Source: Fervidobacterium changbaicum (GTDB lineage: Bacteria > Thermotogota > Thermotogae > Thermotogales > Fervidobacteriaceae). Taken from it: 64,000 nucleotides of DNA. The position numbers were made by a program, and so were the translations under genes. This document shows, piece after piece, positions 2,356 through 37,004 of the stretch. Every line of letters begins with the position of its first letter. Position 1 is the first letter of the stretch. The notes beneath the pieces are model-generated. The model made no database searches, was not told the origin of the DNA, and worked only from the letters and a program-made list of their open reading frames with translations. The stretch is from contig NZ_CP026721.1 of NCBI RefSeq assembly GCF_004117075.1, positions 1,054,001-1,118,000 on the forward strand, read 5' to 3'.

Positions 2356-4170
2356 TTATTCCTCTTCCTCGCCGATTCTAAGCATCGCAAGGAACGCTTC
2401 CTGAGGAATCGTCACGTTGCCTATTTCCCTGAGTTTCTTCTTACCTTCCTTCTGTTTTTCCAATAGCTTCATCTTTCTGGTAACGTCCCCGCCGTAACAC
2501 TTTGCAAGAACGTCCTTTCTAAGTGCCTTAACAGTTGACCTCGCAATGAACCTACCGCCGGCTTTCGCTTGAATCGGTATCTCGAACTGATGCTGTGGAA
2601 TAAGCTCTGCGAGTTTATCGACCAACTTCCTTGCTATCGTATAAGCCTTTTCCCTGTGTGCAACGAACGAAAGTGCATCAACAGGTTCCTTGTTTACGTA
2701 TATAGTAATCTTCACAAGGTCGCTCTTTCTGTATTCAAGAAATTCATAGTCCATCGAAGCATATCCTCGGCTAACCGCCTTCATCTTATCAAAGAAATCA
2801 AAAATAATCTCGGCAAGCGGAACCTCAAAGTGCATCACAACACGCTCATGACCAGCATTCTCTGTTGAAACCAACGTCCCGCGCTTTTCATTTTGCACCA
2901 AATTCATCAACTTTCCAATATATTCAGGTGGAGTGATTATCGACAACTTCACGTAAGGCTCGTATATCTCCCTTACCTCACCTTCTTCAGGAAACTTCGC
3001 TGGGTCGTTGATAAAGACCTCCTCACCGCTGTGAGTAACAACCTTGTACTCAACGTTCGGTGCGGTCAATATAACAGCCATGTCGAATTCCCTTTCAAGC
3101 CTTTCCCTCACAACATCCATATGCAAAAGTCCCAAAAATCCACACCTAAAACCAAATCCCAGTGCAGGTGAATGGTCCGGTTTAAAAACCAGCGCCGCAT
3201 CGTTCAACTTGTACTTTTCCAGAGCTTTCCTTAGCTCTTCATAGTACTCGGGCAAACCGGGATACATACCTGCGTAAACCATCGGCTTGACCTCTTTGTA
3301 ACCTGGTAATGGCTCTGGGGCTGGATTATCAGGTTTGGTAATTGTATCACCAATTCTTGCCTTCGAAACATCCTTCAATCCGGCGATGACATATCCAATA
3401 TCTCCAGCCTTCAAAACATCAACAGGAACCATGTCGGGCGTAAACGTTCCAACCTCAACAACCTCGTACACCTCGCCCGAAGACATCATCATTATCTTAT
3501 CTTGCGCCTTTATCTCTCCATCAAATACCCTCACATACGCAATTGCACCACGGTACTTGTCGTACTTTGCATCAAAAATCAACGCCCTCAAATGCCCATC
3601 ATCGGACGTCTTTGGTGGTGGAACCAACCTAATAACAGCCTCAATCAACTCCTTTACACCAATACCTTCCTTTGCGCTGATTCTAAAAACATCCTCACCC
3701 GGGATACCTATCAAATCCTCAATCTCAGCAACCGTTTCCTCTATATTCGCATTTGGCATATCTATCTTATTCACCGCAGGAATTATCTCCAAGTTATGTT
3801 CCAGTGCCTTGTACGTATTCGCAACCGTCTGAGCTTGGACTCCTTGCGTTGCATCGACAAGCAAGATCGCACCCTCAACAGCTGCCATACTCCTGTCCAC
3901 TTCGTACGAAAAATCCACGTGCCCTGGGGTGTCGACGATATTGATCTCATACTCATTCCCATCGTCTGACTTGTAAAACACCCTAAGCGGATGCGACTTT
4001 ATCGTTATCCCGCGCTCTCGCTCAATATCCATACTATCCAAATACTGCTCTCTCATCTTGCGCTTCTCAACGGCATTCGTCATCTCCAAAATCCTATCGG
4101 TCAACGTCGTCTTACCGTGGTCGATATGTGCGATAATACAAATATTCCTTACGTTCTCTACCTTTCTCAT
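2356..4170 (-). CDS. lepA: Elongation factor 4 (back-translocating GTPase LepA)
   Basis: 604 residues, full length. The N-terminal GTPase domain has AHIDHGKTT (P-loop), switch II DTPGHVDF and NKID. The LepA-specific C-terminal domain follows, ending in a basic stretch (KMKLLEKQKEGKKKL). It acts on the ribosome under ionic or cold stress to rescue stalled translocation. The start ATG at 4170 follows GGAGGGATG. It sits in a run of minus-strand housekeeping genes, between an MscS channel and pepF. Confidence 0.97.
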   Translation of the reverse strand: MRKVENVRNICIIAHIDHGKTTLTDRILEMTNAVEKRKMREQYLDSMDIERERGITIKSHPLRVFYKSDDGNEYEINIVDTPGHVDFSYEVDRSMAAVEGAILLVDATQGVQAQTVANTYKALEHNLEIIPAVNKIDMPNANIEETVAEIEDLIGIPGEDVFRISAKEGIGVKELIEAVIRLVPPPKTSDDGHLRALIFDAKYDKYRGAIAYVRVFDGEIKAQDKIMMMSSGEVYEVVEVGTFTPDMVPVDVLKAGDIGYVIAGLKDVSKARIGDTITKPDNPAPEPLPGYKEVKPMVYAGMYPGLPEYYEELRKALEKYKLNDAALVFKPDHSPALGFGFRCGFLGLLHMDVVRERLEREFDMAVILTAPNVEYKVVTHSGEEVFINDPAKFPEEGEVREIYEPYVKLSIITPPEYIGKLMNLVQNEKRGTLVSTENAGHERVVMHFEVPLAEIIFDFFDKMKAVSRGYASMDYEFLEYRKSDLVKITIYVNKEPVDALSFVAHREKAYTIARKLVDKLAELIPQHQFEIPIQAKAGGRFIARSTVKALRKDVLAKCYGGDVTRKMKLLEKQKEGKKKLREIGNVTIPQEAFLAMLRIGEEEE

Positions 4171-5008: not shown

Positions 5009-5992
5009 TTAAAACATTATCTGCACAGCTTCCCTAACCTCGTTCATAGTTCTTTGGGCAACCTGCCTTGCTTTTTCATTTCCCTCTTCCATCTTTGCCT
5101 TGACCTCATCATCTGAAATAGAATTGTACCTATCCCATATCGGCTGAAGTTTGCCGAGCATATTCTTCAAAAGCAACCTCTTACAATCAATACATCCGAT
5201 CTTCGCCTGCGTACATCCTTCGTACACCCACTGCTTTTCCTCTGGATTATCAGCTGTTCCAAACGCCTTGTGATAATCCCAAACTGGACACACTTCCGGA
5301 TTACCCGGGTCGCTTCTTCTTTTCCTATTCGTATCCGTGACCATCGGCATTATCATCTTCGAAAGCTCCTGCTCGGTTGTGATCAGCGGGATCGTATTTC
5401 CGTAGCTTTTGCTCATCTTCCTACCGTCGGTACCAAGAAGCTTTGGCACCTTGGAAAGAAGCTCCTTAGGTTCCGGGAAGACCTCTTTCTTGAAAATATA
5501 ATTAAACCTTCTTGCGATCTCACGAGTCAGCTCGATGTGGTACACCTGATCTTCCCCAACTGGCACCCCATCGGCTTTATAAATCAAAATATCCGCTGCC
5601 TGCAAAACTGGATACATCAAAAAACCTGCATTCGAAAGGTCTCTGTTTGTAACCTGCTGGCGCATCTCCTTGTACGTAGGCACTCTCTCAAGCCAAGACA
5701 GTGGAGTTACCATCGCAAAGAGCAAAAACAATTCAGCGTGCTGCTTAATAGCGGACTGGACAAACAGAGTTGACTTCTCAAGCCCAACTGCCATCATCGT
5801 CTTCACAAGCTCAAATGTATTTTGCCTTAATTCGCTGGTATCTTCATAGTGCGTTGTGAGTGCGTGCCAATCGGCAACAAAATAAAAAGTATCGTGCCCT
5901 TCGTTCTGGAGTCTTACCCAATTCTCAAAAACACCAACATAATGACCAATATGAACCTTTCCGGTAGGCCTAATACCGCTCAATATACGCAT
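5009..5992 (-). CDS. trpS: Tryptophan--tRNA ligase
   Basis: 327 residues, normal for bacterial TrpRS. Class I signatures are visible: HIGH (residues 14-17, in GKVHIGHYVG) and KMSKS (in DGRKMSKSYGN). It charges tRNA-Trp with tryptophan using ATP. A cysteine set (CPVWDY ... CTQAKIGCIDCK) near residues 240-275 resembles the metal or Fe-S cysteines described for thermophile TrpRS such as T. maritima. The start at 5992 follows GAGGAATCATCA. Its own promoter is probably the TGGTATAAT box at 6035-6043. Confidence 0.97.
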   Translation of the reverse strand: MRILSGIRPTGKVHIGHYVGVFENWVRLQNEGHDTFYFVADWHALTTHYEDTSELRQNTFELVKTMMAVGLEKSTLFVQSAIKQHAELFLLFAMVTPLSWLERVPTYKEMRQQVTNRDLSNAGFLMYPVLQAADILIYKADGVPVGEDQVYHIELTREIARRFNYIFKKEVFPEPKELLSKVPKLLGTDGRKMSKSYGNTIPLITTEQELSKMIMPMVTDTNRKRRSDPGNPEVCPVWDYHKAFGTADNPEEKQWVYEGCTQAKIGCIDCKRLLLKNMLGKLQPIWDRYNSISDDEVKAKMEEGNEKARQVAQRTMNEVREAVQIMF

Positions 5993-6034
5993 TGATGATT
6001 CCTCCTCACAGCATACAAAGTTCGCTTTGAGAAT

Positions 6035-6043
6035 ATTATACCA
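6035..6043 (-). promoter_or_regulatory. Extended -10 promoter box for trpS
   Basis: Minus-strand TGGTATAAT about 45 bases upstream of the trpS start. I see no good -35 hexamer, which is compatible with an extended -10 promoter. It lies downstream of the terminator at 6075-6106, so trpS should be transcribed independently of the upstream repeat RNA. Confidence 0.45.
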
Positions 6044-6074
6044 TAACGACAGGAATCTTTCATCTTACAATACA

Positions 6075-6106
6075 AAAAACAAGCAGGGCAAAAACCCTGC
6101 TTGTTT
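6075..6106 (-). terminator. Rho-independent terminator ending the repeat-RNA / defence-operon transcripts
   Basis: Ten-base-pair stem ACAAGCAGGG (6079-6088) / CCCTGCTTGT (6095-6104). On the minus strand it is followed by a T-rich tract. It ends any transcript coming from 6110 upward, either the candidate small RNA or read-through from the DUF499 gene. Confidence 0.85.
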
Positions 6107-6109
6107 GAT

Positions 6110-6193
6110 GATTAAACCCTTATAGGGAAGCTCAAACAAGATTCAAACCATCATAGGGACGCTCGTTTCAATCCCTTGTAGGGTCGCTCACGC
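6110..6193 (-). repeat. Three tandem degenerate CRISPR-like repeat units
   Basis: Units 6110-6139, 6140-6164 and 6165-6193 share the plus-strand core TAGGG then A/T then A/C then GCTC, preceded by A/T-rich TTCAAaCCc. They belong to a different repeat family from the two large arrays at 19-24 and 40-43 kb. They abut with no spacer. Confidence 0.6.
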
Positions 6194-6469
6194 AAAATTT
6201 TTGAAGTTTTTTTTAATACTCCTGTGGAGCAACTTGTTAGAACGCTTCCTTAATTCAGCAATTTCTCTCAGATATATTATACCACAATCCCTACCGAGAC
6301 AACAAATTGATCCCGACAAATCCGTGGGAGCGGAGCTCTTTATCAGTCCCAATTCTAAGTGAAAAGCTCGTATTCTTTCAGAAATCGGATTTTCGCGTAG
6401 TGTGGATACATCCCTTGTTCACAAAACACTAGAAAGAGTCGTTTATTTCAACGATGGTTTCAGTAACGG
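6194..6469. other. Intergenic stretch between the repeat units and the DUF499 gene
   Basis: No credible reading frame. The only signal seen is the minus-strand TGGTATAAT at 6276-6284 facing the repeat units. Confidence 0.5.
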
Positions 6470-9019
6470 TTATCGCTCTTCAAAATCTATACGAGCTTGT
6501 TCGAAAGCTTCTTTTATTCTCATATCATACTCGTCTTCAGAAATCTCTCCGTCGGTTGCTGTAAGATTTATCCTGATTCTTCCAAATTTTGACTGAATGA
6601 AGCGAAGGATCGGCATGATATCTGATAGCTTACCTTGCGGAACTTCAAATGTAAGTGAAAGCTGTTTTCTTACACCAGCTGGTGGCGTAATAAGTGTTGG
6701 GGGTGTATAATCACGTGTTTTTTCAGCAACAGAGCCTACACCAGTTTCACCGTCTTCTGTTTTTTCGCCTGTGTCTATTTTTCTCCTTTGCTCTTCACAT
6801 ATTTCCTGTCTAATAAGCACTTCATTATCAGCGAAAGATACTGACGGTTTCTCTTTGAAGTAACTACAAATTAGTTTGTCACTGCTCAACTCGCCAAGTC
6901 CGAATATACCTTTCTCCACACCCTCTATAATTCCATCTACCAATACATCCCTGCTTACGAACCTTATCTGCCCTGGAGTAGTCAGTGTTGATTGATAAAT
7001 TTGCTTCGTTGAGACGTAATCCCTATCTACAAGATACTTCTCTTTAATAACCAACGGTGCGATTTTTTCAAGGATTTCACCCAAAGCCTTAAGACGCTCA
7101 TATACCCGATAATCAATCGGCTTCAAATCGCCGTATGTTGGTATACCTAAATCCTCAACCTTTATTTCTTCTCTCTCAGCAGGAATGCCAATCAATCTAT
7201 ACAAAGCCCGTATAACCATATTAAGTTCATCACTTATTTCCTTTAATTTCTCTCTTACCTCTCGTCTTTGTTCTTCGGATAGTTGTAAATCTTTATTACG
7301 TTCAACACGTTCGTAGGCTATCTTTTTCAAAAGTGTGTTCGTAAATCTTGATCTCTCAGATTCCATGGGATATAGGAAGAAGATTGTGTTCCTATTTACC
7401 CGTGGAGTTGCGCCCTTGTTTCTTAAAATGTTTTGAATGCGTTCTTTGTTGTCCCTCTTTAGTACAACCAACTTAAGTTCCTCAGAGTCAGGAATATTGC
7501 TTGGGTCCTCTTCCCATATAAAGACCTTAAGTTTGTCTCCCTTAATGTTTTGTTTAAGAATGTCCAATTCTAATCTTTCAGCTTCTTCGTCCTTTATGTT
7601 TTCCATCTCAGTCAAGATTATCCTGTTGATATTTGGTTGGTTTGAAAAGAAAAATCTATCTCCTGTACTTTGCAAATAAAACAGATTCTGTCTCAACTGC
7701 TCAACAGCTTCTGAAACCAGAGTTGCAGGAACACCGACTACAGAGGCGCATCTTTTCAACTCTCTAAGGTTTATCCCCTTTTCTTGCCCTCCTGAGAAAG
7801 AATATAAAAATATTGTACTTGCTGTCCTTGTTCCCATATTCAAGCCTTGGTATGCATCACCAAGAGATTTATCTACCTTTTTAGCACCAGCACCACTGTC
7901 GGTGATATCCTGCGCCAAAACACTATTGAATTCTGTACCTATGTGCTTTAAGAATTCCTGTCTAATCGTCTCATTTGAAAGGTCAAAATCCGCTAAGCTT
8001 ATATACGGCTTTTCACTGTCCTTTAGTGAATGGATTACTAATGAAAGAATTCTCAGTACGCCTCTTGTACGTTGAAAGTTAGGGAAACTTCCCCATCTGT
8101 GGTACAACACATCCAGCACCTCTGGCATGAACGGATACGAATCAAGGAATCTATCCCTATACTCACTGGGTTGCACTCCTTCAGGAAGGATTCCTTCTCT
8201 ATCTGCATAATTCACGAACCAAGAAACAATTTCCTTTGCCTTTGATTCGTCTACTCCCAGGAAAAGTCTTCTTCGAACAACCTTCGCTATTTCGTTTTCG
8301 TTTACAGGTGTATAAATCTTTTCAACTCTTCCAGACACCCTTTGAAGCTGCTGGTAGAGCCTTTCTGCCGATTCATCGTAATGCTCTATAACACTTGAAG
8401 GCAATGTGACAACAAGGCACGCTTTTTCCAAGCTTGCTACCGCTTCCGTCAGCTCCTGTATGAATGCGATAGTCTGCGCTGCCAAGGTGCTTTCTCCTAT
8501 CGTAACTCCGGCAGCCCTTGTTGCGTATTCTAAGATTTCGTCCATAAGTATAACTACTGGCTGATGACTTTCAAGCAGTTCCTTGATTTCCTTCTTGCTC
8601 TTGCTCCAGTTTTTATCGGTAAATTCTTCTATCTTCCCAGTTAACTGCTGTTCGAGTGTCCCCCACAATGTTTCATAAGTAGTTAGCGCGGTTCCTACCA
8701 TCACAATCCTTTTTGCTCCCCATTCTTTCGCTTTGTGGTAAATAGCAATGAGGGCGTGTGTTTTACCACCACCAAATGGTGTTTGAAGTTGAATGACAGG
8801 ATCTCCACCCAGTCCTTTTAATCTTTTTTCAACAATACTCAGCAAATTCTTCAGCCCTTCAGTAAGGTATGTCTTTTGGAAGAATATATCTGGATCTCTA
8901 TACTCTTCATGTCCTTTATTCTGGCTCACCTCAGACAAATCTGCAGCAAATACGTCCATGGTAAGTCTACCCTCAATAATATCCTTATGGGGTATAGTAA
9001 CAGTATGGAACGGGTACAT
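6470..9019 (-). CDS. DUF499-family AAA ATPase of a defence-type operon
   Basis: About 849 residues. Near the N-terminus QTPFGGGKTHAL is a Walker A motif (K86, T87 from the chosen start), and VVILMDEILEY (D160, E161) is Walker B. This is the pattern of DUF499 proteins, which NCBI often labels anti-phage-associated. A C-terminal region of about 80 residues (SLTFEVPQGKLSDIMPILRFIQSKFG) looks like a small separate domain. The start ATG 9019 follows GGGAGGCG. It is the third gene of an operon with the DUF1156 methylase (52 bases upstream) and the SNF2 helicase. The family is known to co-occur with DUF1156 methylases; the role as ATP-driven motor or sensor of the system is inferred. Confidence 0.85.
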   Translation of the reverse strand: MYPFHTVTIPHKDIIEGRLTMDVFAADLSEVSQNKGHEEYRDPDIFFQKTYLTEGLKNLLSIVEKRLKGLGGDPVIQLQTPFGGGKTHALIAIYHKAKEWGAKRIVMVGTALTTYETLWGTLEQQLTGKIEEFTDKNWSKSKKEIKELLESHQPVVILMDEILEYATRAAGVTIGESTLAAQTIAFIQELTEAVASLEKACLVVTLPSSVIEHYDESAERLYQQLQRVSGRVEKIYTPVNENEIAKVVRRRLFLGVDESKAKEIVSWFVNYADREGILPEGVQPSEYRDRFLDSYPFMPEVLDVLYHRWGSFPNFQRTRGVLRILSLVIHSLKDSEKPYISLADFDLSNETIRQEFLKHIGTEFNSVLAQDITDSGAGAKKVDKSLGDAYQGLNMGTRTASTIFLYSFSGGQEKGINLRELKRCASVVGVPATLVSEAVEQLRQNLFYLQSTGDRFFFSNQPNINRIILTEMENIKDEEAERLELDILKQNIKGDKLKVFIWEEDPSNIPDSEELKLVVLKRDNKERIQNILRNKGATPRVNRNTIFFLYPMESERSRFTNTLLKKIAYERVERNKDLQLSEEQRREVREKLKEISDELNMVIRALYRLIGIPAEREEIKVEDLGIPTYGDLKPIDYRVYERLKALGEILEKIAPLVIKEKYLVDRDYVSTKQIYQSTLTTPGQIRFVSRDVLVDGIIEGVEKGIFGLGELSSDKLICSYFKEKPSVSFADNEVLIRQEICEEQRRKIDTGEKTEDGETGVGSVAEKTRDYTPPTLITPPAGVRKQLSLTFEVPQGKLSDIMPILRFIQSKFGRIRINLTATDGEISEDEYDMRIKEAFEQARIDFEER

Positions 9020-9071
9020 AATTTCGCCTCCCAAAAATTGTTTGTCTTTAGATTCCTTTATTTATGTTGGT

Positions 9072-11825
9072 TTAGTCAAAAAGTCCATATTTCTTTGTAT
9101 TTCTTACTTCCTCTCTTAAACGCTCCTTACCTGCAAGGAAACCATCGAGAAGTTTCTTTTCTTTACTCTCATTAGGCAATGTCTCTGATATCGCTTGAGC
9201 AACCCGATAAAAAGCCTCACTTTCACCATATCCCGTTTCTTTAAGTACTATTAACATGTCGTCTCTCTTACCTTTCTCCCATAGCAAGAGTACATGATGC
9301 AACACATCGATAAGTTCGGTGGAATCTTTCAAGTCCTCTATATTCCTCTCATGGGGGCCGAGGACTCTTATAAATTCTTTCTCCCTCTTTATAAACCCCT
9401 TCCTATTCCACTCGGAAGCAAGGTCTATACCACAACTTGTAGCCAGTTTTCTTGCCTCGTCGAATGGAACTTTCGCTTCGCCAAAGTTCCAACGGTAAAG
9501 CACATAAAACCTTGTCAGCTCCGAAATTTCCCCTGCAAAACCATTATGCAATATTTGGTGCACCGCAAAATCAGTTGCTATCTTTCGAACATCCTCAAGA
9601 AGCCTATCCGCGCGGATGATGTTCCCCTCATAGTCCATCACCTTTTCGTATTTGCCAAAAACCTCTATTGCTGAACCAATCGCAGCTATGAAGAAGTCCG
9701 CTCCACCAATTCCCTCTGCCCACAGTCGTTCCAGTTTTCTGGTCAAATGATTTTTCAGTTCCTCTCTCACATTGTTATAAAAACCTACTGGTTCTCTTTC
9801 TATTTTTCTTGCAACAATGTAGATGGAGGATGCTAGCGTAGCAGATTCTTGAGCTCGAAGTCTTGTTTGCATCTCCGTATTGATGGGGTAGGCAGCTGTG
9901 ATAACTAAACCTGAATCGAGGAGAGAATTAATAAGTGTCTCCCATCCTTGTGTTGATTTGTGAGCATAAACGATAACTGCAATACCATTTGGTTTCAAAA
10001 CACGGTGTATCTCTTGGAAAGCTTTCTTTAGCATTGACTCAAAGAATTTTTTGCCTGCTTCCTTCCCACCTTCTTTGTGAGAATAAGCTACGATCTCCTG
10101 AGATTTTGGTGTCAGGGGTGTTGAGAATAACTCAGGGTACAGATCACCGATACTACGCTTTAACCAGACGTAAAAGAAATCGGAAAGATGAGAATATGGC
10201 ACATTGTCGTAATATGGTGGATCAGTGAATACAGCATCAAAAAAGTTGTCCAAATAAGGAAGTGAAGTAGCACTTGCTTGTGTTACAACCGGAAGAACAT
10301 CAGTCATAGAATCATTGGCCAACAATCCTGAACTTTTTGGACTTTGCGAGCAGTGGTAAATAACGTTTAAATTATATTCTACCGAATTCAACCAGTCACC
10401 GGTAGATCCACTAAATGGATTGGATTCAAAATAGTCCCAAACCATTGGTAAAGCTTGGCGACTGAAAGAACCAGCAATAGTTTCTTTAGTATTTGCCCAT
10501 CTGCTAATCGTATTATTCTTCTCTGCTATATTATCTATGCTAATTGCGAGATAGCTTGCTACTGCTTTCGCATATTCTCTATCCACGCCAATAGCAAGCA
10601 TCCTTCTATATACCTCTTTCACCTTTTCTAAAAATACAATGAGTGCAAGTTTTTGCCGAGAGTTAAAGAGGTCTCCCCACTTGAGAAAACCATACCGTTG
10701 AATCCTGAATCCTAAAGTCTCTTTAGGAGGCAACGGTTCATCAGGAACAGGATCCATTCCCCATTCTTCCATCAGTTTTCTCCTTTTCTCTTTCATATAT
10801 TCTTCGGCTTCCATGAAGGCTTTAAGATCCTGTGCGGTTGCTAAGCGGTAGACTTTCCCCTGACTTCCTGGGCTTTCTAAAATCACCGCTATCATTCTTT
10901 CGCCAGACTTTCCTTCCTGAAATAGTCTCCTTGTCGTGTCGTCGTCAATTACCGATCCGCAAACAGGACAAGTTACTACTGCTCTGGAAACTGTACCGTT
11001 ATCGGGATCAAAAACCTTTGGCATCTCTTCATATCCATCGCCGACTATCTTAAATTTCACATCCTTACCCTCGACATATGGAAACAGTGCGACTTTCTTG
11101 TTACTCTTTCTCACAAGCCAGTATTGTCTTATCAGAGGTATCTCAGCACCACATGAAGGATTTTGACAAGGGATTGTTCTTGCCCATGTGTATCCAACCG
11201 GGATGCTTCCATCCGGGTCATGTGGATAAAATTTTCCAATTTCTTTCCTTGCCTCCTCCAAGACCCACTCTGCCCAATATCGAACGTCTTCAACAAGAAC
11301 ATTATCCACGTTCACTTTTCTTCTTACTTTTGTTCCGAATTCTTCTACTTCCTTCTCAACTTCACCCTTTTTTCCGTACTTTATGGGATACTCAAGGGTA
11401 CATTTTTGAATAAACACAGCAACGGGGTTCAAATCATTTGAATAAACCTCACAGCCAATGCGAAGAGCCTCAAGAGGAATTGAGCCACCCCCACCAAATG
11501 GGTCAATCACCTTTGGGGGGGTTCCACCGTTGGCTTCGAGAATATCTTTTCTCACCTTATATATCAAATCCTTCCTCAACGAATTCTCCCATTTGGACAG
11601 TTCGATAATGAAGTGTCTTTTCTTCTCCCATTCTTCAATCTCATTAGGTGCCGGAATTAGCGCAGCATAGCTTGTCGCACGTGAAGCCGCCAGCGGACGT
11701 CTTGCCCACCAAATGTGTAGGGTAGAAATATGACCTTGCCGAATGCTTTTTTCCCTTGCGGATTCAGCACTTACCTCCCTCACTGGGAAGGACTCTTCTA
11801 TGAACCTTCTATCTTTCTTATCCAT
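9072..11825 (-). CDS. DUF1156-family DNA methyltransferase (anti-phage-associated)
   Basis: 917 residues. The N-terminal DUF1156 block (ESFPVREVSAESAREKSIR, HIWWARRPLAASRA) is followed by the SAM-binding motif DPFGGGGSIP (residues 108-117) and the catalytic N6-adenine/N4-cytosine motif DPPYYD starting at residue 535. A zinc-ribbon-like pair, CQNPSCG and CPVCGS, lies between them. It most likely methylates host DNA so that the linked helicase/ATPase can tell self from foreign DNA. That role is inferred from the operon; the methylase fold is visible directly. Start ATG 11825 follows GAGGAAAAAAG. No separate restriction endonuclease gene is present. Confidence 0.88.
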   Translation of the reverse strand: MDKKDRRFIEESFPVREVSAESAREKSIRQGHISTLHIWWARRPLAASRATSYAALIPAPNEIEEWEKKRHFIIELSKWENSLRKDLIYKVRKDILEANGGTPPKVIDPFGGGGSIPLEALRIGCEVYSNDLNPVAVFIQKCTLEYPIKYGKKGEVEKEVEEFGTKVRRKVNVDNVLVEDVRYWAEWVLEEARKEIGKFYPHDPDGSIPVGYTWARTIPCQNPSCGAEIPLIRQYWLVRKSNKKVALFPYVEGKDVKFKIVGDGYEEMPKVFDPDNGTVSRAVVTCPVCGSVIDDDTTRRLFQEGKSGERMIAVILESPGSQGKVYRLATAQDLKAFMEAEEYMKEKRRKLMEEWGMDPVPDEPLPPKETLGFRIQRYGFLKWGDLFNSRQKLALIVFLEKVKEVYRRMLAIGVDREYAKAVASYLAISIDNIAEKNNTISRWANTKETIAGSFSRQALPMVWDYFESNPFSGSTGDWLNSVEYNLNVIYHCSQSPKSSGLLANDSMTDVLPVVTQASATSLPYLDNFFDAVFTDPPYYDNVPYSHLSDFFYVWLKRSIGDLYPELFSTPLTPKSQEIVAYSHKEGGKEAGKKFFESMLKKAFQEIHRVLKPNGIAVIVYAHKSTQGWETLINSLLDSGLVITAAYPINTEMQTRLRAQESATLASSIYIVARKIEREPVGFYNNVREELKNHLTRKLERLWAEGIGGADFFIAAIGSAIEVFGKYEKVMDYEGNIIRADRLLEDVRKIATDFAVHQILHNGFAGEISELTRFYVLYRWNFGEAKVPFDEARKLATSCGIDLASEWNRKGFIKREKEFIRVLGPHERNIEDLKDSTELIDVLHHVLLLWEKGKRDDMLIVLKETGYGESEAFYRVAQAISETLPNESKEKKLLDGFLAGKERLREEVRNTKKYGLFD

Positions 11826-17796: not shown

Positions 17797-18357
17797 TTAC
17801 TCAATTATCAACCTATCTAAATGATTGAAGGTCGCCACTTTGCGCCAGTCTTTCATCTGAATGTGGACTTTGTCTGAAAGCCCTTTCCAAGTACCGCCCC
17901 ATTCCATACCTAATCTTAACGCAACTTCGCCACATCTTTGCCAAAGTTCATTATTGTTCCACTGAGGTCTGCCATTAACAACCGGAACAAAATCTGCTGC
18001 CAAACCGTAGTTATGTGCTGAAACACGGAGTCTTGTGACAATATATCTATTTTCTTTTTCTCGTAACAAAGGAAGACCTACTTCTTTACGCTTTTCATTT
18101 ACTATCTCTAGTGGTTGTCTCCCTTGAGCATACAAAGCCTGCTGCCTTTTTTTCGAACGCCAAGTTTCATATATCCACACACTGATTCCTTCCTTTGAAC
18201 ACTCTCTAACAAAATCTTCAACATATTTTCTAAATTGATAATTTAAACTACTTAATCCTATCTCCAACTTAACCTCCCAAACAGCTGGTTCCAAGAGTGT
18301 TGGAATTAGAAGAAGAATGATGACCACGATTACTATTTCTGAGCTTGCATATCTCAA
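17797..18357 (-). CDS. Membrane-anchored M15-family peptidoglycan peptidase
   Basis: About 186 residues. An N-terminal hydrophobic segment (IVIVVIILLLIPTLL) is a signal anchor. The M15 domain follows, with YETWRSKKRQQALYAQGR, the zinc motif SAHNYGLAADF (H and D ligands) and HIQM near the end. This is the pattern of VanY/CwlK and L-alanoyl-D-glutamate endolysin-type enzymes that cut peptidoglycan stem peptides. I favour a TTG start at 18357 with GGACGGG eight bases upstream; a TTG at 18381 is also open. A paralogue without anchor is at 56721-57158. It lies in a degraded region but is itself intact. Confidence 0.8.
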   Translation of the reverse strand: MRYASSEIVIVVIILLLIPTLLEPAVWEVKLEIGLSSLNYQFRKYVEDFVRECSKEGISVWIYETWRSKKRQQALYAQGRQPLEIVNEKRKEVGLPLLREKENRYIVTRLRVSAHNYGLAADFVPVVNGRPQWNNNELWQRCGEVALRLGMEWGGTWKGLSDKVHIQMKDWRKVATFNHLDRLIIE

Positions 18358-18433
18358 ATCCTCATCCCGTCCTTTATACAAAGCCTTTCAGAAGTATTTT
18401 ATACCCCACAGCACCTCCTTTCAACAGATGAAA

Positions 18434-19183: not shown

Positions 19184-19332
19184 GTTTCCATCTCTTTCAG
19201 AGAGAAGTGCCTTTCCTACCTACATAGAGTACTTGCAACGGTTCGAGGCAAACGGAGAAAATTTCCATCTCTTTCAGAGAGAAGTGCCTTTCCTACTTTA
19301 ATAGAACAAAAACACAGCGTCACCGTGCAAGC
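19184..19332 (-). CRISPR. Two 36-bp repeats of a different CRISPR family at the distal end of array 1
   Basis: Copies at 19184-19219 and 19261-19296 are identical except for the first base. They are separated by a 41-base spacer and joined to array 1 through a 36-base spacer (19297-19332). On the plus strand they begin TTTCCATCTCTTTCAGAGAG and end CCTTTCCTAC. In crRNA sense they end GAGATGGAAAC (or T for the second copy), sharing the last nine bases with the main 30-bp repeat, but the rest differs. Confidence 0.75.
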
Positions 19333-22300
19333 ATTTCCATCCCTCATAGTCACTTCTAAAACCGAATTATTATTGAAGGCTATAACCAGGTCCTTATCCA
19401 GGTTTCCATCCCTCATAGTCACTTCTAAAACAGTTTTTAAAAGTTTTTATTGTCGATAACTCGGTGTTTCCATCCCTCATAGTCACTTCTAAAACATGTA
19501 TATTTAGATGAAGAACAAACGATGCTAACGAAAGGTTTCCATCCCTCATAGTCACTTCTAAAACAGGAGGTGATGCGTGATTACAACATCCCAGACACAA
19601 ACTTGTTTCCATCCCTCATAGTCACTTCTAAAACGAGTGGTATGGTGCGGAAGATTGTAACGGGAATTAAGGTTGGGTTTCCATCCCTCATAGTCACTTC
19701 TAAAACTTTCATACTGGGAAAATGAAGTCTCATACGGGGAAATCTGTTTCCATCCCTCATAGTCACTTCTAAAACTGTTTATGTTTTTGCGCAGAACGAC
19801 GAAGAGATTACTTTCTTTCCATCCCTCATAGTCACTTCTAAAACGAAGACAATGTTGTTCACTACGTCAATGAGTTGATTGAAGCTTTCCATCCCTCATA
19901 GTCACTTCTAAAACGTTATTAGTAAAAGTAATATTAGGCTTCTTGTCTACCGCTTTCCATCCCTCATAGTCACTTCTAAAACGGAAGAGCCAACGGACGC
20001 AATGCGGCTGGGTAAGTTGATGGCTTTCCATCCCTCATAGTCACTTCTAAAACTTAGATTATTTGTTCGACGAGTACAAACTCCTCGATTACGTCTTTCC
20101 ATCCCTCATAGTCACTTCTAAAACTGCATGGAATTGGATTGAAGGTTCCTCTGAACAAGCTACAACTTTCCATCCCTCATAGTCACTTCTAAAACTTTCT
20201 CCTGAAAAAGTTACAAAATTACTAGAATTTCTTAACTTTCCATCCCTCATAGTCACTTCTAAAACCTCCTTTTTTAAAATTTTTTGTTTTTCCCAGGCAA
20301 GGCTATCACTTTCCATCCCTCATAGTCACTTCTAAAACTTGTTGTTGTTCGTTTCCATAGAATCTTTGGTGCCTCGAACTTTCCATCCCTCATAGTCACT
20401 TCTAAAACCGACGAAAGTTTCATAGTAGTAAAACACGGTGACGATTGCTTTCCATCCCTCATAGTCACTTCTAAAACGCAGACTTTGAATTTGATTTTGA
20501 AAGCATTCGTAAATATGCTTTCCATCCCTCATAGTCACTTCTAAAACCTCAAAAGCAACTGAAACAGCAGAACTATTCATCAACTTTCCATCCCTCATAG
20601 TCACTTCTAAAACCAACGTATACACATGGTTCGAAGTAACATACGATTTGGAAGCTTTCCATCCCTCATAGTCACTTCTAAAACCTATTTTAAGGGGTCC
20701 AGCCGGGAGCGGGAAAACGTTCCTGGCTTTCCATCCCTCATAGTCACTTCTAAAACAATAAATACGGCATAATACATAACCCTCACCCCAGGGTACCTTT
20801 CCATCCCTCATAGTCACTTCTAAAACAAGTGTTCTATGAATTTCTCAACTTGTATGACAGTCTCACTTTCCATCCCTCATAGTCACTTCTAAAACTGGTA
20901 GAAAAAAAGATAATTTTAAGTTTAGGTTCTCTTGGGCTTTCCATCCCTCATAGTCACTTCTAAAACTTTCCAGGGCACTGTTCAGGTACTCGATGAGGAC
21001 GGCAACCTTTCCATCCCTCATAGTCACTTCTAAAACGGTTGTGTTTAAGTGTGCGGGAAAAGATGACTTTTTGGTATACTTTCCATCCCTCATAGTCACT
21101 TCTAAAACTGTAGTAAGTGTATTTGAATACCTCAAAAACAAATACGCTTTCCATCCCTCATAGTCACTTCTAAAACAGGTTTCAGAGTGACGGTTTAGGT
21201 TTAGTGGTTGTTTTCTTTCCATCCCTCATAGTCACTTCTAAAACATATACCACAAGGGTATTTGTTAGAGTGATATAAAACTTTCCATCCCTCATAGTCA
21301 CTTCTAAAACTTATTGCAGTGCCTGGGAATAAGATAATGCTTAAAACTTTCCATCCCTCATAGTCACTTCTAAAACAAAAAATTAATTGACTTGTGCACA
21401 GGTCAATCTGTCACATTTTTGCTTTCCATCCCTCATAGTCACTTCTAAAACATTTCGAATACGACGAGCAAGCTGTGGAGTACATGCTACAGCTTTCCAT
21501 CCCTCATAGTCACTTCTAAAACCAAGTTAGTACGTTACGGACAAATGTTACCGATTGAAACTATAGCTTTCCATCCCTCATAGTCACTTCTAAAACATAT
21601 AAGACGTCGCTCATGTTGTGGTATGAAAAACACTTTCCATCCCTCATAGTCACTTCTAAAACGTAGAGCTTAGGCAGTTGTTTAAGCCTAAGCGTTTGTT
21701 AACTTTCCATCCCTCATAGTCACTTCTAAAACGGATTTTGCTTTTTTTATTTTCCTTCTCTTGCTTTTACTTTCCATCCCTCATAGTCACTTCTAAAACG
21801 AGACAAAAATTTACATTAAAAGAGCTCGAAGACTTTCCATCCCTCATAGTCACTTCTAAAACAAATATAAGAACGGGAGGTGGTCGAATGGATTTAAGAC
21901 TTTCCATCCCTCATAGTCACTTCTAAAACGCTCACTCCTTCAAACAGCTTTGTACGCATATATGCTAGACTTTCCATCCCTCATAGTCACTTCTAAAACG
22001 GGGTAGTAGTAGGAGGTAGTAGAGGTAGTGGCAATACTAAACTTTCCATCCCTCATAGTCACTTCTAAAACGCAAATTTACAAATTTTAGGTACAGAGGT
22101 CTATATTACACTTTCCATCCCTCATAGTCACTTCTAAAACCAAAGTTCTATTGGTAAATCTTCTATGACTTACGTTATTTCTACTTTCCATCCCTCATAG
22201 TCACTTCTAAAACTATATTTGGGGGTGATAATTTTATTACAAATTGCAGGATATCTTTCCATCCCTCATAGTCACTTCTAAAACCAAAGTTCTATTGGTA

Positions 22301-24281: not shown

Positions 24282-25865
24282 TTAGGCGATTTCAAGGATC
24301 TTGCCAACAACGTAAGGATTCTTCCTCTGTTCGTCATAAGGTCTTTCGTCAAATGCAATGACCGACTTGATAGACTTTCCATATCGGATTCTATCTCTTA
24401 TTCTTTCTATAATATATGTCATAAAGGTTGTTCCACCAGTAATGTTGACGATTATCTCCCTTGCATTCTCAAGATAGTTTTCTGCTTTGGAGAGTATATC
24501 CCTTATTTCAGTAACACCGGAAAATGGATCCTTTATAATTATTGTTCTAACTTCGCCCCTAAACTCCGATTTTTCTACAATTTCATCGACTAACTTATTC
24601 CCTTCCTCTGAGGTAAGGATAACCAGTAGGTCTGCGTTGTAATTTTTCAGTACAGTGTACAAAGCTCCTTGAGTTGTACCAAGAGGAGTTAAGATAGCCT
24701 TCAGGTTTTTTTCTGGTGTGAACTCATTGAAGAATACATCTAAGTTGCCATTCTCAATCTTTTCAATCAAATCGTTAAGTGCAGCTCTGATCTTGTCGGG
24801 ACTTACGGGCAGGTTGTTAAAACCGAAATGAGCAAAGTGATTTCTTGCATCAAACAATACATTCGACTTCACCGGTAATGATTCTCTTTCACTAATATTC
24901 AAGAACTCGTCGTGTTTGCCCATTTTGTACAGAAGAACGTTCTTTATGTATTCACGAGCCAATCTTAGCGCCATACCGTAATCACCGGTTTGCACATAGA
25001 ATTTCACCAACTCCGCTTCTGACTTCAGTTCTTCTTCATTGAGAATCAGCGATTCATTTTCGATGTGGAAGGCTTTGTAACGTTCAACAAGTTTTTCAAA
25101 GAGTGGGGCGAAATGAGGAACAAATTCACTTACATCTCTTTTTAGCTTTTCGTCGCTAATGTCCTTGAAGAACTTACTTAAAGAATTACGGATAAGTTGG
25201 ATAGACCCAAGCCTTATAGATTCCGATACTTTTGTTAGGTCATCTGACAATATCCCCAGCTTTGTTGGTCTGTCTGCGTTCTTTTTGTGGTTGTTTTTAT
25301 AGTATTTTTCGTTCTGCTTTTTAATCAACTCTGACAACTGGGTTGCAAAACCGTAGTTTGTAAATAGTTTCGTTCCATATATCCAATCTATAGTCTCCGA
25401 CATTTCTGTAATATCAGTGCATCTTGTTGTTTTTATGTCACGATCGTACTTGCCGTATATTATTTTCACTTGAATTTGCTTTAGTTCTTTCAAATAAAGA
25501 GAAATAATTAGAGCCATCATTGGCAACATTCTAAAAGAGTGAGTTACGTCTAAGATAACCTCGTCACCATCCTGTACGCGAGGTATTATCTTCTTAACAA
25601 AATCAGCGACTTTTTCATCTTCGGAAATGTCAACTATTTTGACGCTAATACCGCGTGATTCGCAAAATTCTTTAACTTGCTCTTTTTGGAAGGTTTCATA
25701 AGCTCCTCGAGTTAGAAAGAATATCACTTCAAGGTCTTTGCCCTGCGATTTAAAAAACTCAACCAAAGCAAGCGGAAAAATCTTTTGCTTTGTCCTAAAG
25801 TCATCTATGAATACTTCACTCTCCTGGTAAGAGCCCGTGCCAAGGAAGGTTAGAAGTTTCGTCAT
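24282..25865 (-). CDS. Csx1/Csx2 (TM1812)-type CARF-HEPN protein with an extra C-terminal CARF-like domain
   Basis: 527 residues. The N-terminal CARF domain (about 1-160) has LGTGSY and the hallmark DVTHSFRMLP (106-115) of the TM1812/Csx2 family. A helical middle carries RNHFAH (R341, H346), an R-x4-H HEPN ribonuclease motif. Residues 388-527 form what looks like a second CARF domain: LTPLGTTQGAL, LLVILTSEEG, and NITGGTTFM (474-482). Ordinary family members of about 350-400 residues end after the HEPN part. Expected to be activated by cyclic oligoadenylate from Cas10 and to cut RNA. Start ATG 25865 follows GGGAGG. It lies downstream of the CalpT-like gene. The family is clear; the second CARF assignment is my inference. 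Confidence 0.85.
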   Translation of the reverse strand: MTKLLTFLGTGSYQESEVFIDDFRTKQKIFPLALVEFFKSQGKDLEVIFFLTRGAYETFQKEQVKEFCESRGISVKIVDISEDEKVADFVKKIIPRVQDGDEVILDVTHSFRMLPMMALIISLYLKELKQIQVKIIYGKYDRDIKTTRCTDITEMSETIDWIYGTKLFTNYGFATQLSELIKKQNEKYYKNNHKKNADRPTKLGILSDDLTKVSESIRLGSIQLIRNSLSKFFKDISDEKLKRDVSEFVPHFAPLFEKLVERYKAFHIENESLILNEEELKSEAELVKFYVQTGDYGMALRLAREYIKNVLLYKMGKHDEFLNISERESLPVKSNVLFDARNHFAHFGFNNLPVSPDKIRAALNDLIEKIENGNLDVFFNEFTPEKNLKAILTPLGTTQGALYTVLKNYNADLLVILTSEEGNKLVDEIVEKSEFRGEVRTIIIKDPFSGVTEIRDILSKAENYLENAREIIVNITGGTTFMTYIIERIRDRIRYGKSIKSVIAFDERPYDEQRKNPYVVGKILEIA

Positions 25866-29680: not shown

Positions 29681-30421
29681 TTATACAATTTCTCTATCAA
29701 CAAGTTCTATGCATCCAAATCCTGCGGAGTTTTTGGAACCCAAACCCGCGTCATATGCTAATTTAACGATTTCCCAGTCACCAGTGATATCAAGCACTGT
29801 AATCCATGCATCAAGTTTTAATTCCTTGTAGGAGACAATAACTTTCTTCGGATTAGGTGCTATGTTTTTTACCCGTATGTCTCCTTCGAAAGGAACACCG
29901 TACGCGGCGTAATATTTCCTTTTAAGGTTGTCCTCCAGAAGTTTTTCAAAATCTTCATCGTTTGGTGAATGATAGAGCGTGTACCTTTTTCCATCTTTCC
30001 CAATTGTTGAATAAACAGTTATTGGTGATTTGGTATTCACTCTGATATGATTGGTCCTCGGAAGGTCAAATACTTGAATTTTTGTTGGCACAACCTTATT
30101 TCTTCCGATATTCAGTGTTTCAAATCTCCCGATCCTTTCAATAACGAAATCCACAAGTTTGTCATCTGCGGTAGAAAGTATCAAAACAACATTATCCTTA
30201 AATTTGATGACTTTCTTGTTAGAGTCTATTTCGAATCTTCCCAGAAGCCTTGAGAAACTGAAAAGTTTGTACTGTCTTTTACCATAGCTGTAGCCTCTAT
30301 CATGTAAGAACTTTCTGTACTCGTCATCGTTGATAAGATTGTATATAAGACCTTGAAGTATGTGATTGTAATCTGTTGGAAGTTCTATTGTTTTGCAACT
30401 AAGAGTGATGTAGACTCTCAA
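29681..30421 (-). CDS. cas6: CRISPR pre-crRNA endoribonuclease Cas6
   Basis: 246 residues. The C-terminal glycine-rich loop GLGSKNSAGFGCIEL is the Cas6 signature, and the N-terminal RRM-like fold begins MRVYITL. It cuts the repeat RNA to leave the eight-base handle ending the repeat (ATGGAAAN). The start is TTG at 30421 overlapping the upstream TGA, with GGGGGG seven bases before it. Last gene of the csm operon, which ends just before the MITE-like element. Confidence 0.92.
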   Translation of the reverse strand: MRVYITLSCKTIELPTDYNHILQGLIYNLINDDEYRKFLHDRGYSYGKRQYKLFSFSRLLGRFEIDSNKKVIKFKDNVVLILSTADDKLVDFVIERIGRFETLNIGRNKVVPTKIQVFDLPRTNHIRVNTKSPITVYSTIGKDGKRYTLYHSPNDEDFEKLLEDNLKRKYYAAYGVPFEGDIRVKNIAPNPKKVIVSYKELKLDAWITVLDITGDWEIVKLAYDAGLGSKNSAGFGCIELVDREIV

Positions 30422-31038
30422 AATCTATTCCCCCCTAATTTATCAGCTAATATTAACACGTTCTTTAAATCTTCTTCCTCATATACGAAATAATTGGTAC
30501 TACCTATCCTAAGACCTACTGTATTAACAAGCTGAATCATCTCTTTTGAACCAAAGAGTTTCAGTCTGTACACGTTCTTCCTAAACGAAGTTATGACTGG
30601 AATCAGAGAAAGTTCTTCGCTTTTGTCTTTAAAAAGCTGTTCGGCTAGGCTGAAATAGTATTTTTCGAAATTGGCTTGTAGCTCGTCTATATTGCTTTCA
30701 CCAAGTTGTTCATCTACCAATATGAAACCTTGATCGAAAGGTTCAACAACTTCAATGGTTGTGTAATAAGGGAAAACACCACCAAGAGGAACTCTCAGAA
30801 GTTTCCTCAAGGTGGTTCCGGAAAGGGTATCCCAAACTCGCAATTTAAATATTGCAGTACCTGACATATAATATCCGTTCTCGCTCAAATAAATCCTACG
30901 CCCAAGAATTCCAGAAAACGAGTAGAAGTATCCTACACCGTCACCAAAAATTTGCTCAAATAAGCCCCGTGTTAGCTCGTTCGTAACTAAAACAGGCGCC
31001 TGTAATTTCCACTTTAGAGTAATTTCCTGCAAGTTCAA
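30418..31038 (-). CDS. Unidentified protein inside the csm operon
   Basis: 206 residues, start TTG near 31038 (or TTG 31032, better spaced from GGGG). It is tightly placed between csm5 and cas6 and overlaps cas6 by four bases. It begins with alternating strands (ITLKWKLQAPVLVTNELTRGLFEQIFGDG), has VPLGGVFPYYTTIEVVEPFDQGF in the middle and a mixed alpha/beta end (RIGSTNYFVYEEEDLK). The strand pattern and position suggest a divergent RAMP-like or Cas6-related fold, but I see no glycine-rich RAMP loop. Not a standard Csm subunit. Confidence 0.75.
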   Translation of the reverse strand: MNLQEITLKWKLQAPVLVTNELTRGLFEQIFGDGVGYFYSFSGILGRRIYLSENGYYMSGTAIFKLRVWDTLSGTTLRKLLRVPLGGVFPYYTTIEVVEPFDQGFILVDEQLGESNIDELQANFEKYYFSLAEQLFKDKSEELSLIPVITSFRKNVYRLKLFGSKEMIQLVNTVGLRIGSTNYFVYEEEDLKNVLILADKLGGNRF

Positions 31039-31055
31039 AACCCCTTTGTCTGTTT

Positions 31056-32210
31056 TTAATCCATAAGTTCAACTTTAACCCAGCCAAGTGGCATTATGTC
31101 ATTTGGTGATTCAGATAACTTAACTATCCTGGTAGTTATCGGGAAATTACTTTCCGTAATTTTGCGATATCCAAAGTTCTTCAACACTTTGATTTCAGCT
31201 GGTTCTAAGAAACCTCTAAAGGCTGTTTTTGAGTAGAAAGACGTGTGTCCGCCTATCCTGACCAAGAAACCCCTATCCGCTTTCTCGTTAATGTCGAGGA
31301 GTTTTTTATAGAATTCTTCAAGTGTTTTCTTGACAGGGTTATCTGACATTGTGCTTATTTTCTGCCGTTCCATGTTTATGATAATCATAGCTGATTCTTT
31401 CATTCTATCAACAAATACCTTCTCGTTAGAAAAAAGGTTTCTGAAATAGCCAAGAGCTTCCTTAAGTTTTTCATTTCTCCTAACTTCTTCCAAACTCTCT
31501 AATTTGCTCAAGTTTGAAAATAGAGAAATTATTTCTGCAGCTACTTTATTTCCTTCGTTGCTCCTCATATCAGGAAGCCACACTTCGACAAACTGAGGTA
31601 TACTTGTTTTTTGTCTTACAAAGTGAACAACTTCAACCTTCTTGAATTTTATGTGTGAATTGTTGATAAAAGTACTGTCCGTTATTCTAAGAAGTTTGAA
31701 TGGCGAATAGAACGGTTGCCCAAAGATATTTTGTTCGACTTTTTCAACCTCAAATTTTACATTTGGAGATCTGAAAACATTTCTAAGTGTAGCTTCGAAT
31801 TTTTGATTGGATTTAATAATCATCGTCCTTAAAGCACCTTTGAGCGAACTGCCTGGTATATAGTACCTGCCGGCTGTTCTTATAAATCTACTTATTTGCA
31901 AAGTTTTCGGTTTGCCGTTTTTATCAAAGATTGTATCAAACGAAGTATAGCTGTACTCTTGCAAGTCAATCTTGAGTACTTCAAATATCTTCAAAAGAAC
32001 TGCATCTTTAGTTTCTGGATTAAAAATTTTGTCACTGTTGGCCACAAAATAGTCCACGAATTTTTCGTGTTCCATTAGTTTGTCAAAATTTAGAATATGC
32101 GTCTTCTTTCCTTGAACGATAGTTTCGAACTTACCAATCTTTTCTCCAGAACCTATAAATACAGCTGAAACTGGTTCAATCGATATCCTTTTACTAAAAT
32201 CTGCTGTCAC
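31056..32210 (-). CDS. csm5: Type III-A CRISPR RAMP protein Csm5
   Basis: 384 residues. Csm5 caps the 3' end of the crRNA in the Csm complex. RAMP features: IEPVSAVFIGSGEKIG at the N-terminus, and YYIPGSSLKGALRTMII, the conserved RAMP block shared with Csm3. The C-terminal half has RIGGHTSFYSKTAFRG. The GTG start at 32210 overlaps the csm4 stop (GTGA) with GGAGGGAG upstream, so it is translationally coupled. Confidence 0.9.
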   Translation of the reverse strand: MTADFSKRISIEPVSAVFIGSGEKIGKFETIVQGKKTHILNFDKLMEHEKFVDYFVANSDKIFNPETKDAVLLKIFEVLKIDLQEYSYTSFDTIFDKNGKPKTLQISRFIRTAGRYYIPGSSLKGALRTMIIKSNQKFEATLRNVFRSPNVKFEVEKVEQNIFGQPFYSPFKLLRITDSTFINNSHIKFKKVEVVHFVRQKTSIPQFVEVWLPDMRSNEGNKVAAEIISLFSNLSKLESLEEVRRNEKLKEALGYFRNLFSNEKVFVDRMKESAMIIINMERQKISTMSDNPVKKTLEEFYKKLLDINEKADRGFLVRIGGHTSFYSKTAFRGFLEPAEIKVLKNFGYRKITESNFPITTRIVKLSESPNDIMPLGWVKVELMD

Positions 32211-33190
32211 GGCTGACTCCCTCCTTTGAATGGGAGCAAGAATGCCTTTCCGTATCTGTATACTTTGTAATTATTTTCCTCTTCGAATCCTTCGGGTGAT
32301 ATGTCTAAAATCCTCCCATCCACACGCTTATTGAAAACTGAGCCTTCTGTGAACATTATAACGCGTTTGGCTTTTTTATCGCTATTGTGTATATAACCGG
32401 TTCTATACATTAGTTCGTATGACTTTATAACTTCCTTAGCAAGCTCGGATGTGCTCTCTTTGTAATCTTCAGGACTTGGGATGTATGGTGAAAGCAAAAG
32501 GTATCTGTCACCTTCCTTAGGTAGTTCAATTGGTTGGATTTCGTAATCGAAATGACCAAATCCGTACGTCCTGTCGCCACCAATGCCCTCGTCTGCCAAA
32601 AGTCTTAGCGCTGCAAGTATTTGTTTCTCAATTTCTTGACCAACGGACAGGTAGAACCAAAGCCCGCAGTTAGGTGCGAAGTGGACTTCTGAAAAGTAAT
32701 AGAGGTTTGAGCTTGAATTCAAACGATTAATCATGACCCTCGGTCTCTCAATAACAATCGCTGGGCTGTTGAACTCGCCTTGGTATTCTATCTTCTTCTT
32801 GCTCAAAAATTGGCCGTGTACGTCGTCTACATTAGCCTTAGCACTCCCAAAAACTATTTCTTCCTGCACATACTTCACTTTCTTTAATTTCTTTGGTTGG
32901 GTTAATCTTGGCAATAAGCCGAAGTCCTCACCTTTTGGCCTGGGCAAAAAGTAAGTATCTCCAATATAGTAAAAAGCAGAGGAAAAACGAAGGTCAGTCT
33001 TTTCAGAATTAGTCATTAATTTTTTTATGAGCTCTTCCGTTTCTCGCTCACCGAACAATTTTGAATGCGCATTCATCAACGCACCGAAAATTGTTTCGGC
33101 ATGGATTATAATATCTGAAACTTCACTTACGCCGTCCATAAGACCAATATGAAGTGGACCTTTGAATTTAATTTTTATCCGATAGTCCAT
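32207..33190 (-). CDS. csm4: Type III-A CRISPR RAMP protein Csm4
   Basis: About 327 residues. Csm4 holds the 5' handle of the crRNA and contacts Cas10. The N-terminal RAMP strand IKIKFKGPLHIGL is followed by AETIFGALMNA, and the C-terminal glycine-rich loop by GGDRTYGFGHFD. I favour ATG 33190 over the GTG at 33199. It lies between csm3 and csm5 in the standard order. Confidence 0.9.
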   Translation of the reverse strand: MDYRIKIKFKGPLHIGLMDGVSEVSDIIIHAETIFGALMNAHSKLFGERETEELIKKLMTNSEKTDLRFSSAFYYIGDTYFLPRPKGEDFGLLPRLTQPKKLKKVKYVQEEIVFGSAKANVDDVHGQFLSKKKIEYQGEFNSPAIVIERPRVMINRLNSSSNLYYFSEVHFAPNCGLWFYLSVGQEIEKQILAALRLLADEGIGGDRTYGFGHFDYEIQPIELPKEGDRYLLLSPYIPSPEDYKESTSELAKEVIKSYELMYRTGYIHNSDKKAKRVIMFTEGSVFNKRVDGRILDISPEGFEEENNYKVYRYGKAFLLPFKGGSQP

Positions 33191-33240
33191 GCGCCTCACT
33201 TCCCTAAGATAGGATAGCTATTCCATTGAGTTCCTTTAAA

Positions 33241-33969: not shown

Positions 33970-34013
33970 ATTCGTATCCCCCTTTACATTGTTGTTCTTT
34001 TATCGCACTTTTA

Positions 34014-34499
34014 TCATCTTTCCTGGTACTTTTCATAGTACTTATGGAACGCAGTAAGAGATTCGAAGAAGTCCATGAAAAGGTAAAAAGATTTCTTAAT
34101 CTCCTGTCCCTGTTTTTTCTTAATGCTTTCAACAATGTTCCTCATACCTTTAGCAAATTCTTCGAGAACTTCGTTATTTCCGGATTCTCTACCAACGTCA
34201 TATACCATCATAGCAACGAACTTGTTAAGCTCTCTCTTGAGAATTCTTTCAATTTCCGTATCGCTCTTACCTGCAATGTCAATTTTCTTGACGTGGTTAT
34301 AGAACTTTCTCAATTTTGTTGAATTCAGCTTCAAGTTCTTTGCTATTTGTTCAGCCTTTTCAGTCAAGGTGTTGTAGTCTTCGTTCATAGATTCTATGAG
34401 TTTCTTTACATCTCCAAAATATTTGGCCATCTCAGGGGTTTGGTTCCTTACCTGGTTGTTACCTCTGTTCTGATAGCTGTTTGGCTGTCCTACGCTCAT
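34014..34499 (-). CDS. csm2: Type III-A CRISPR small subunit Csm2
   Basis: About 161 residues, helical and basic, with the family pattern NSTKLRKFYNHVKKI. A Gln/Asn-rich N-terminal tail (GQPNSYQNRGNNQVRNQ) precedes the helical core. It lines the crRNA-target duplex. ATG 34499 is supported by GGAGGTG at seven bases and leaves one base after the cas10 stop. Confidence 0.88.
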   Translation of the reverse strand: MSVGQPNSYQNRGNNQVRNQTPEMAKYFGDVKKLIESMNEDYNTLTEKAEQIAKNLKLNSTKLRKFYNHVKKIDIAGKSDTEIERILKRELNKFVAMMVYDVGRESGNNEVLEEFAKGMRNIVESIKKKQGQEIKKSFYLFMDFFESLTAFHKYYEKYQER

Positions 34500-34500
34500 T

Positions 34501-36990: not shown

Positions 36991-37004
36991 CTTTCCACCC
37001 CCAA

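Follow-up and report, generated by a model that had tools for sequence, protein, structure and literature searches.

Three degenerate CRISPR repeats, two of them abutting, between an HmaABC operon and trpS in Fervidobacterium changbaicum: repeat mimic or relic?

Between an Hma defence operon and trpS of F. changbaicum lies a short element in which repeat units resembling those of CRISPR arrays stand outside any array, the first two abutting without a spacer. The first-pass annotation of the window (the whole stretch of DNA that was analysed, 64,000 nucleotides) had described a spacerless mini-CRISPR-like RNA with its own promoter and terminator, and had offered a decayed array or a crRNA-like regulator as explanations. 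Three degenerate repeat units were indeed found in the region that it had indicated, on the minus strand, together with TGGTATAAT, which reads as a predicted extended −10 element on the same strand, and the adjoining genes were matched by PADLOC to HmaA, HmaB and HmaC, as expected of the defence operon that it had named. The features are listed below in window coordinates, in the direction of transcription.

30418-37994, minus strand: type III-A csm genes, cas10 and cas1 of the resident CRISPR system, which has a different repeat
29681-30421, minus strand: Cas6, the sole PF01881 match of the genome
11920-15270, minus strand: HmaA-like SNF2 helicase, neighbour (PADLOC, E 9.5e-208)
9072-11825, minus strand: HmaB-like DNA-adenine methylase, neighbour (PADLOC, E 1.3e-137)
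6470-9034, minus strand: HmaC-like AAA+ ATPase/DUF499 protein, neighbour (PADLOC, E 6.7e-124)
18 bases upstream of the extended −10, minus strand: predicted weak −35 of the element, TTGTTG (consensus match only)
6276-6284, minus strand: predicted extended −10 promoter of the element, TGGTATAAT (consensus match only)
6189-6165, minus strand: unit A, GAGCGACCCTACAAGGGATTGAAAC; matches a live repeat variant of G013, which is of a different genus in this family, at 22 of 24 bases, and unit A of the congeneric genome G007 at 23 of 25
6164-6140, minus strand: unit B; matches the G013 repeat at 21 of 24 bases and its G007 namesake at 22 of 25
6133-6109, minus strand: unit C, the most degenerate; matches the G013 repeat at 17 of 24 bases and its G007 namesake at 22 of 25
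6106-6077, minus strand: strong intrinsic terminator of 13 pairs (predicted)
6035-6043, minus strand: separate predicted extended −10 promoter of trpS, downstream of the element's terminator (motif match)
5009-5992, minus strand: trpS, neighbour outside the element, found in 19 of 20 family genomes

Anatomy and predicted transcript

Units A and B follow each other directly at a 25-base period, whereas 6 bases separate the 25-base cores of units B and C (period 31), so that the abutment first claimed for all units holds for one junction of the two. A 20-base repeat family at 6114-6133, 6145-6164 and 6170-6189 accounts for the cluster, which lacks both marks of an array: unique spacers of regular length, given the periods of 25 and 31, and near-identical repeats, given an identity of 80 to 85% over those 20 bases. 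A profile built from the units and live repeats, with A and B in the training set and C left out, scored 36.7, 35.0 and 19.4 for A, B and C; in shuffles of the whole 1-kb region the 95% maximum was 5.1, and the profile's scan of 6990-5991 returned no further clear unit. The 3′ half of the repeat is intact in unit A and worn in B and C, with much kept overall, and GGGATTGAAAC is present within the units. The window contains 10 occurrences of the motif TGNTATAAT, where 2.6 are expected, and the motif also precedes trpS.

A promoter and a terminator of the element's own are both predicted, in agreement with the first description, but the terminator is not distinctive, as the region before trpS in G008 and G004 has a terminator-like hairpin at the corresponding position but no units (by eye). 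With transcription starting at the 6276-6284 promoter and ending at the 6077 terminator, the predicted RNA would be about 195 bases long. A minus-strand scan of 5900-6500 after the HmaC stop found no second terminator, and the one at 6106-6077 may therefore also end the transcript of the Hma operon. Rfam gave 0 matches in the window at the gathering threshold.

Each unit had been said to form a CCCTA/AGGG hairpin. Unit A can do so, but unit B has TGG and folds otherwise, and the lowest-energy fold of unit C alone differs as well. The strongest predicted fold of the element pairs unit A with unit C. Without the terminator, the element reached a fold z of −2.6 in the host and −3.7 in G007, compared with −5.5 for three direct copies of the consensus repeat. 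Because the consensus copies fold better than the element, the fold follows from the palindrome of the repeat and is no independent sign of function. Selection on structure was considered and found unsupported beyond that palindrome, and a comparison of the host and G007 copies by eye gave no compensatory pair.

Repeat ancestry and the G007 copy

Seven units were compared with the G013 repeat GTTTGTAGCGTCCCTATGAGGGATTGAAAC and agreed with it at 16 to 22 of 24 bases; against two G013 repeat variants, units A and B matched at 20 to 22 of 24 and unit C at 16 to 17. One of these variants forms a true array of about 66-base spacing next to genes for Cas7, Cas5, Cas3, Cas4 and Cas1, a gene set that points to type I-B. 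In G006, of the host's own genus, a related repeat accompanies a cluster of Cas6, TM1802-type, Cas7, Cas5 and Cas3 genes. The start of the units, where kept, is GTTTGAGC, which lacks one T of the live GTTTGTAGC; this suggests that they have a source in common. On the strength of these matches, we take the units to be descended from a type I-B CRISPR repeat: the element has the source type of repeat in common with the G013 array and differs from it in that the latter is spaced and accompanied by cas genes.

The resident CRISPR system of the host is of another kind. No cas genes matching the unit repeat were found in the host, and its one cas1 and one Cas6 (PF01881) both lie alongside type III-A genes; that Cas6, at 29681, is closest to the element among the cas genes found by a Pfam match. 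Resident arrays at about 19.2-20.0 kb and 40.0-42.0 kb of the window (the parts covered, not the outer ends) consist of GTTTTAGAAGTGACTATGAGGGATGGAAAC or a variant in its last base, and the second of them adjoins the type III-A locus with its Cas6, csm, cas10 and cas1 genes. This repeat agrees with units A, B and C at only 15, 15 and 11 of 24 bases, too few for the units to be the tail of a resident type III-A array, and that origin was ruled out. Separately, the array at 19-20 kb switches repeat type (at about 19184-19350): its last two repeats are GAAAGGCACTTCTCTCTGAAAGAGATGGAAA and the others GTTTTAGAAGTGACTATGAGGGATGGAAA followed by C, G or T. The array repeat of an Argonaute-type locus in G007 is near-identical to the GAAAGGCACTTCTCTCTGAAAGAGATGGAAA form. 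A protein that weakly matches a Card1-type CARF and one with a SAVED domain flank the type III-A genes (24282-25865 and 38092-39621); the two are possibly cyclic-oligonucleotide effectors.

When the 226-base element was compared with 61 genomes by BLAST, matches were obtained in 4 (the host, G007, G026 and G022), and those in G026 and G022 were limited to query positions 187-223, at the terminator. In G007 the A-B-C trio lies in identical order and adjoins coaE. A further unit stands directly after TGGTATAAT, followed by a second worn unit, A, B, C and an unrelated terminator, which gives two extra scattered worn units in total, the first of them directly behind the extended −10. Units A and B again have no spacer (31-base period), and B and C lie about 30 bases apart (period 62, compared with 31 in the host). 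The term spacerless applies to the A-B junction, in two genomes. The G007 B-C interval (L023, 1532-1595) contains a complement of the unit B core, CCTCATAGTGA, with which a 13-pair hairpin is predicted. The 20 kb around the coaE copy hold housekeeping genes and no recognised defence gene, and neither a PF01881 Cas6 nor a matching CRISPR system was found in G007. Its only cas1 match belongs to a locus with Cas2, Argonaute and a different repeat; this locus (L187, G007:C18, 278-6715) comprises Cas1-Cas2, an MpAgo-like Argonaute, a TOTE-type primase and a four-repeat array. A candidate Cas12a-type array before trpS of G007 was rejected, being in fact a duplicated terminator-like stretch.

Unit by unit, host and G007 agree at 67 of 75 bases. 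Five alternative pairings of the units gave 54 to 61 of 75, each unit being closest to its namesake, and letters permuted within columns reached 67 with p 0.002. Namesake identity and the shared spacerless state of A-B indicate that the trios most likely derive from a single ancestor whose A and B were already adjoining. Between the two genomes, trpS is 87% identical at the protein level and 77% at the DNA level, with agreement at 38 of 108 four-fold sites, far below the identity of the units. Since synonymous sites are thus saturated, neutral sequence would have become unrecognisable since the split, and an old neutral fossil is unlikely. A binomial comparison of the units with the four-fold sites gave 2e-22, a value that assumes independent sites and vertical descent and is not a probability of function. 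Alignment of the flanks scored 24 upstream, equalled or beaten by 20 of 300 shuffles, and 11 downstream, equalled or beaten by 241 of 300, so that the similarity ends at the unit edges. Constraint on the units fits this ending better than recent transfer of a longer stretch: transfer would have to involve about 90 bases excised at the repeat edges and should leave similar flanks, of which none were found, whereas constraint would explain the edges directly. The case for conservation and constraint is a comparison of two genomes only.

Distribution in relatives

The element is rare, with carriers numbering 2 of 9 genomes in the genus and 2 of 103 in the class, and the closer relatives G008 and G004 lack it. 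A search for it next to trpS in relatives had been proposed as a check; the regions upstream of trpS in G008, G004, G007, G002, G006 and G001 hold no units, and the one other copy, that of G007, lies elsewhere. A conserved trpS leader was ruled out by the same absence. Downstream of coaE, inspection by eye revealed no cluster in G004, G006, G005, G001, G000 (the host), G003 or G002. In G004 and G007 a VanY-type peptidase gene directly precedes trpS, and the VanY/M15 gene of the host is at 17797-18381, beyond Hma; the Hma operon and the element therefore occupy a stretch that those relatives lack there. The G007 gene (L155, G007:C6, 8132-8584), an M15/VanY-type peptidase, has phage endolysin matches.

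Further searches did not add a copy. A covariance model, R1, built from two sequences only, matched 21 of 103 genomes at E<=1, mostly at ordinary arrays; the host scored 102 bits and G007 157 bits, both being training sequences, and all others at most 39. Array-type repeats were present at all 12 loci inspected for repeats among the 18 others. The spacerless pattern was matched in 11 of 103 class genomes, 2 of which are the known copies, and the other nine matches had no repeat context by eye. A scan of a genome-contig collection returned 2 loci, neither a copy; because such a scan can omit the host's own or very near genomes, and missed G007, it is weak evidence of absence. Viral scans returned 0, 35, 1 and 1 stretches, none a copy of the element, and phage and plasmid collections gave no element match and no phage or plasmid context.

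Candidate roles of the element

Known ectopic repeats offer two comparisons. Solitary repeat units, or Racrs, are described as CRISPR-repeat mimics that lie outside arrays and away from cas genes behind a predicted promoter, and as single repeats carried by viruses and plasmids; 82.9% of the prophage units tested there had a host cas operon of the matching subtype (PMC10651486). By that description, the element resembles a Racr in being a candidate repeat mimic outside an array, with a predicted promoter and no adjacent cas gene, as does the G007 unit directly behind its extended −10 (PMC10651486). It differs in having three units of worn sequence on a bacterial chromosome, in that no matching cas subtype was found in its host, and in being known from sequence alone. 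CreA consists of degenerate CRISPR repeats that stand outside an array, flank a pseudo-spacer and are linked to their cas locus (PMC9458426) as well as to a toxin RNA gene. The degenerate repeats of our element likewise stand outside an array, but it has no pseudo-spacer (none between A and B, about 6 bases between B and C in the host), and its neighbours are trpS and HmaABC with no adjacent cas gene. Titles and abstract openings in the open-licence literature gave no prior report of a spacerless chromosomal repeat trio.

Without a spacer between A and B an ordinary guide cannot be encoded, and since no matching Cas was found either, a repeat mimic or a relic remains. We tentatively favour, at a probability of roughly 0.42 and only slightly ahead of a recently moved relic, an orphan ectopic cluster of three degenerate type I-B repeats that was inherited as one unit and is transcribed as a repeat-mimic RNA. 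Transcription from the 6276-6284 promoter to the 6077 terminator would yield the RNA of about 195 bases, whose units retain much of the repeat's 3′ half and the capacity to pair and which could therefore bind or occupy repeat-binding Cas proteins instead of guiding them; candidate targets are Cas6 and Cas7 of type I-B systems and, less well, the resident type III-A Cas6. Transcription of the element, its protein binding and any benefit are inferred. In favour of a mimic are the conservation of the units, the lack of a spacer, the predicted signals for transcription and the G007 unit placed at a promoter as in Racrs. Against it stand the small number of carriers in genus and class, the unrelated loci of the two copies (trpS/Hma and coaE), the wear of B and C in their 3′ halves and the two scattered worn units of G007, which look like those of a decaying array. 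An element conserved on bacterial chromosomes after loss of the matching CRISPR system would show that repeat mimics are able to persist beyond, or to move independently of, the system that they imitate.

Nearly as probable is a dead relic, in which a type I-B array in a donor or ancestor lost its spacers and cas genes and left three terminal repeats beside a terminator; the host copy would have arrived with the Hma insertion next to trpS, and any transcript would be incidental. No matching arrays or cas genes were found in either carrier, which counts for a relic as it does against a mimic, and the two extra worn units of G007, the location of the element in a host stretch missing from relatives and the presence of the terminator without units in other genomes are likewise consistent with it. 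Unit C, the leader-distal one, is the most worn in both genomes, as terminal repeats are, and like a degenerate array end the element has a terminator behind its last unit. The tails of two arrays, in G006 and in the host, nevertheless keep spacer-scale distances, so abutting repeats are not what an array end usually looks like. Moreover, recombination between repeats deletes a spacer plus one repeat and does not produce abutting repeats, and loss of spacers by that route would not leave the A-B junction. Thus, of the decayed array first proposed, the CRISPR ancestry stands on the G013 repeat, but simple old decay is disfavoured by the conservation and by the A-B junction shared with G007. Should the element be a relic after all, array finders and small-RNA catalogues should handle such tandem repeats carefully.

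Improbable, by comparison, is an incidental likeness to CRISPR in what would be a trpS leader or attenuator, or a structure at the 3′ end of the Hma transcript. The element does lie between HmaC and trpS, codirectional with both and ended by a terminator, but trpS has its own predicted promoter downstream of that terminator, the units are missing before trpS in the six relatives, the G007 copy is beside neither gene, Rfam offers no match at the gathering threshold, and units A and B agree with a live repeat at 20 to 22 of 24 bases. Least probable is a guide in the manner of CreA or an scaRNA, with a degenerate mini-array bringing a CRISPR effector to a promoter on the chromosome: degenerate ectopic repeats are the hallmark of CreA (PMC9458426) and about 30 bases separate B from C in G007, but that interval is not conserved, shrinking to about 6 bases in the host, A and B have no spacer, no cas operon is adjacent, and the resident type III-A repeat is unrelated, so that the crRNA-like role first suggested, with neither spacer nor matching Cas, went unsupported.

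The favoured repeat-mimic RNA could be taken a step further, to a heritable chromosomal decoy of several spacerless units that acts like an anti-CRISPR against type I-B, in genomes without I-B, and is kept under selection. This stronger form is unlikely; if true, it would perhaps shield mobile or defence islands of its host from interference by I-B systems that enter. As a separate observation, the 62-kb viral contig L108 contains a single CTATGAGGGATTGAAAC at 3594-3616, corresponding to the 3′ half of the genus-type CRISPR repeat; it matches a unit or repeat at 21 of 25 bases and could be a solitary repeat unit.
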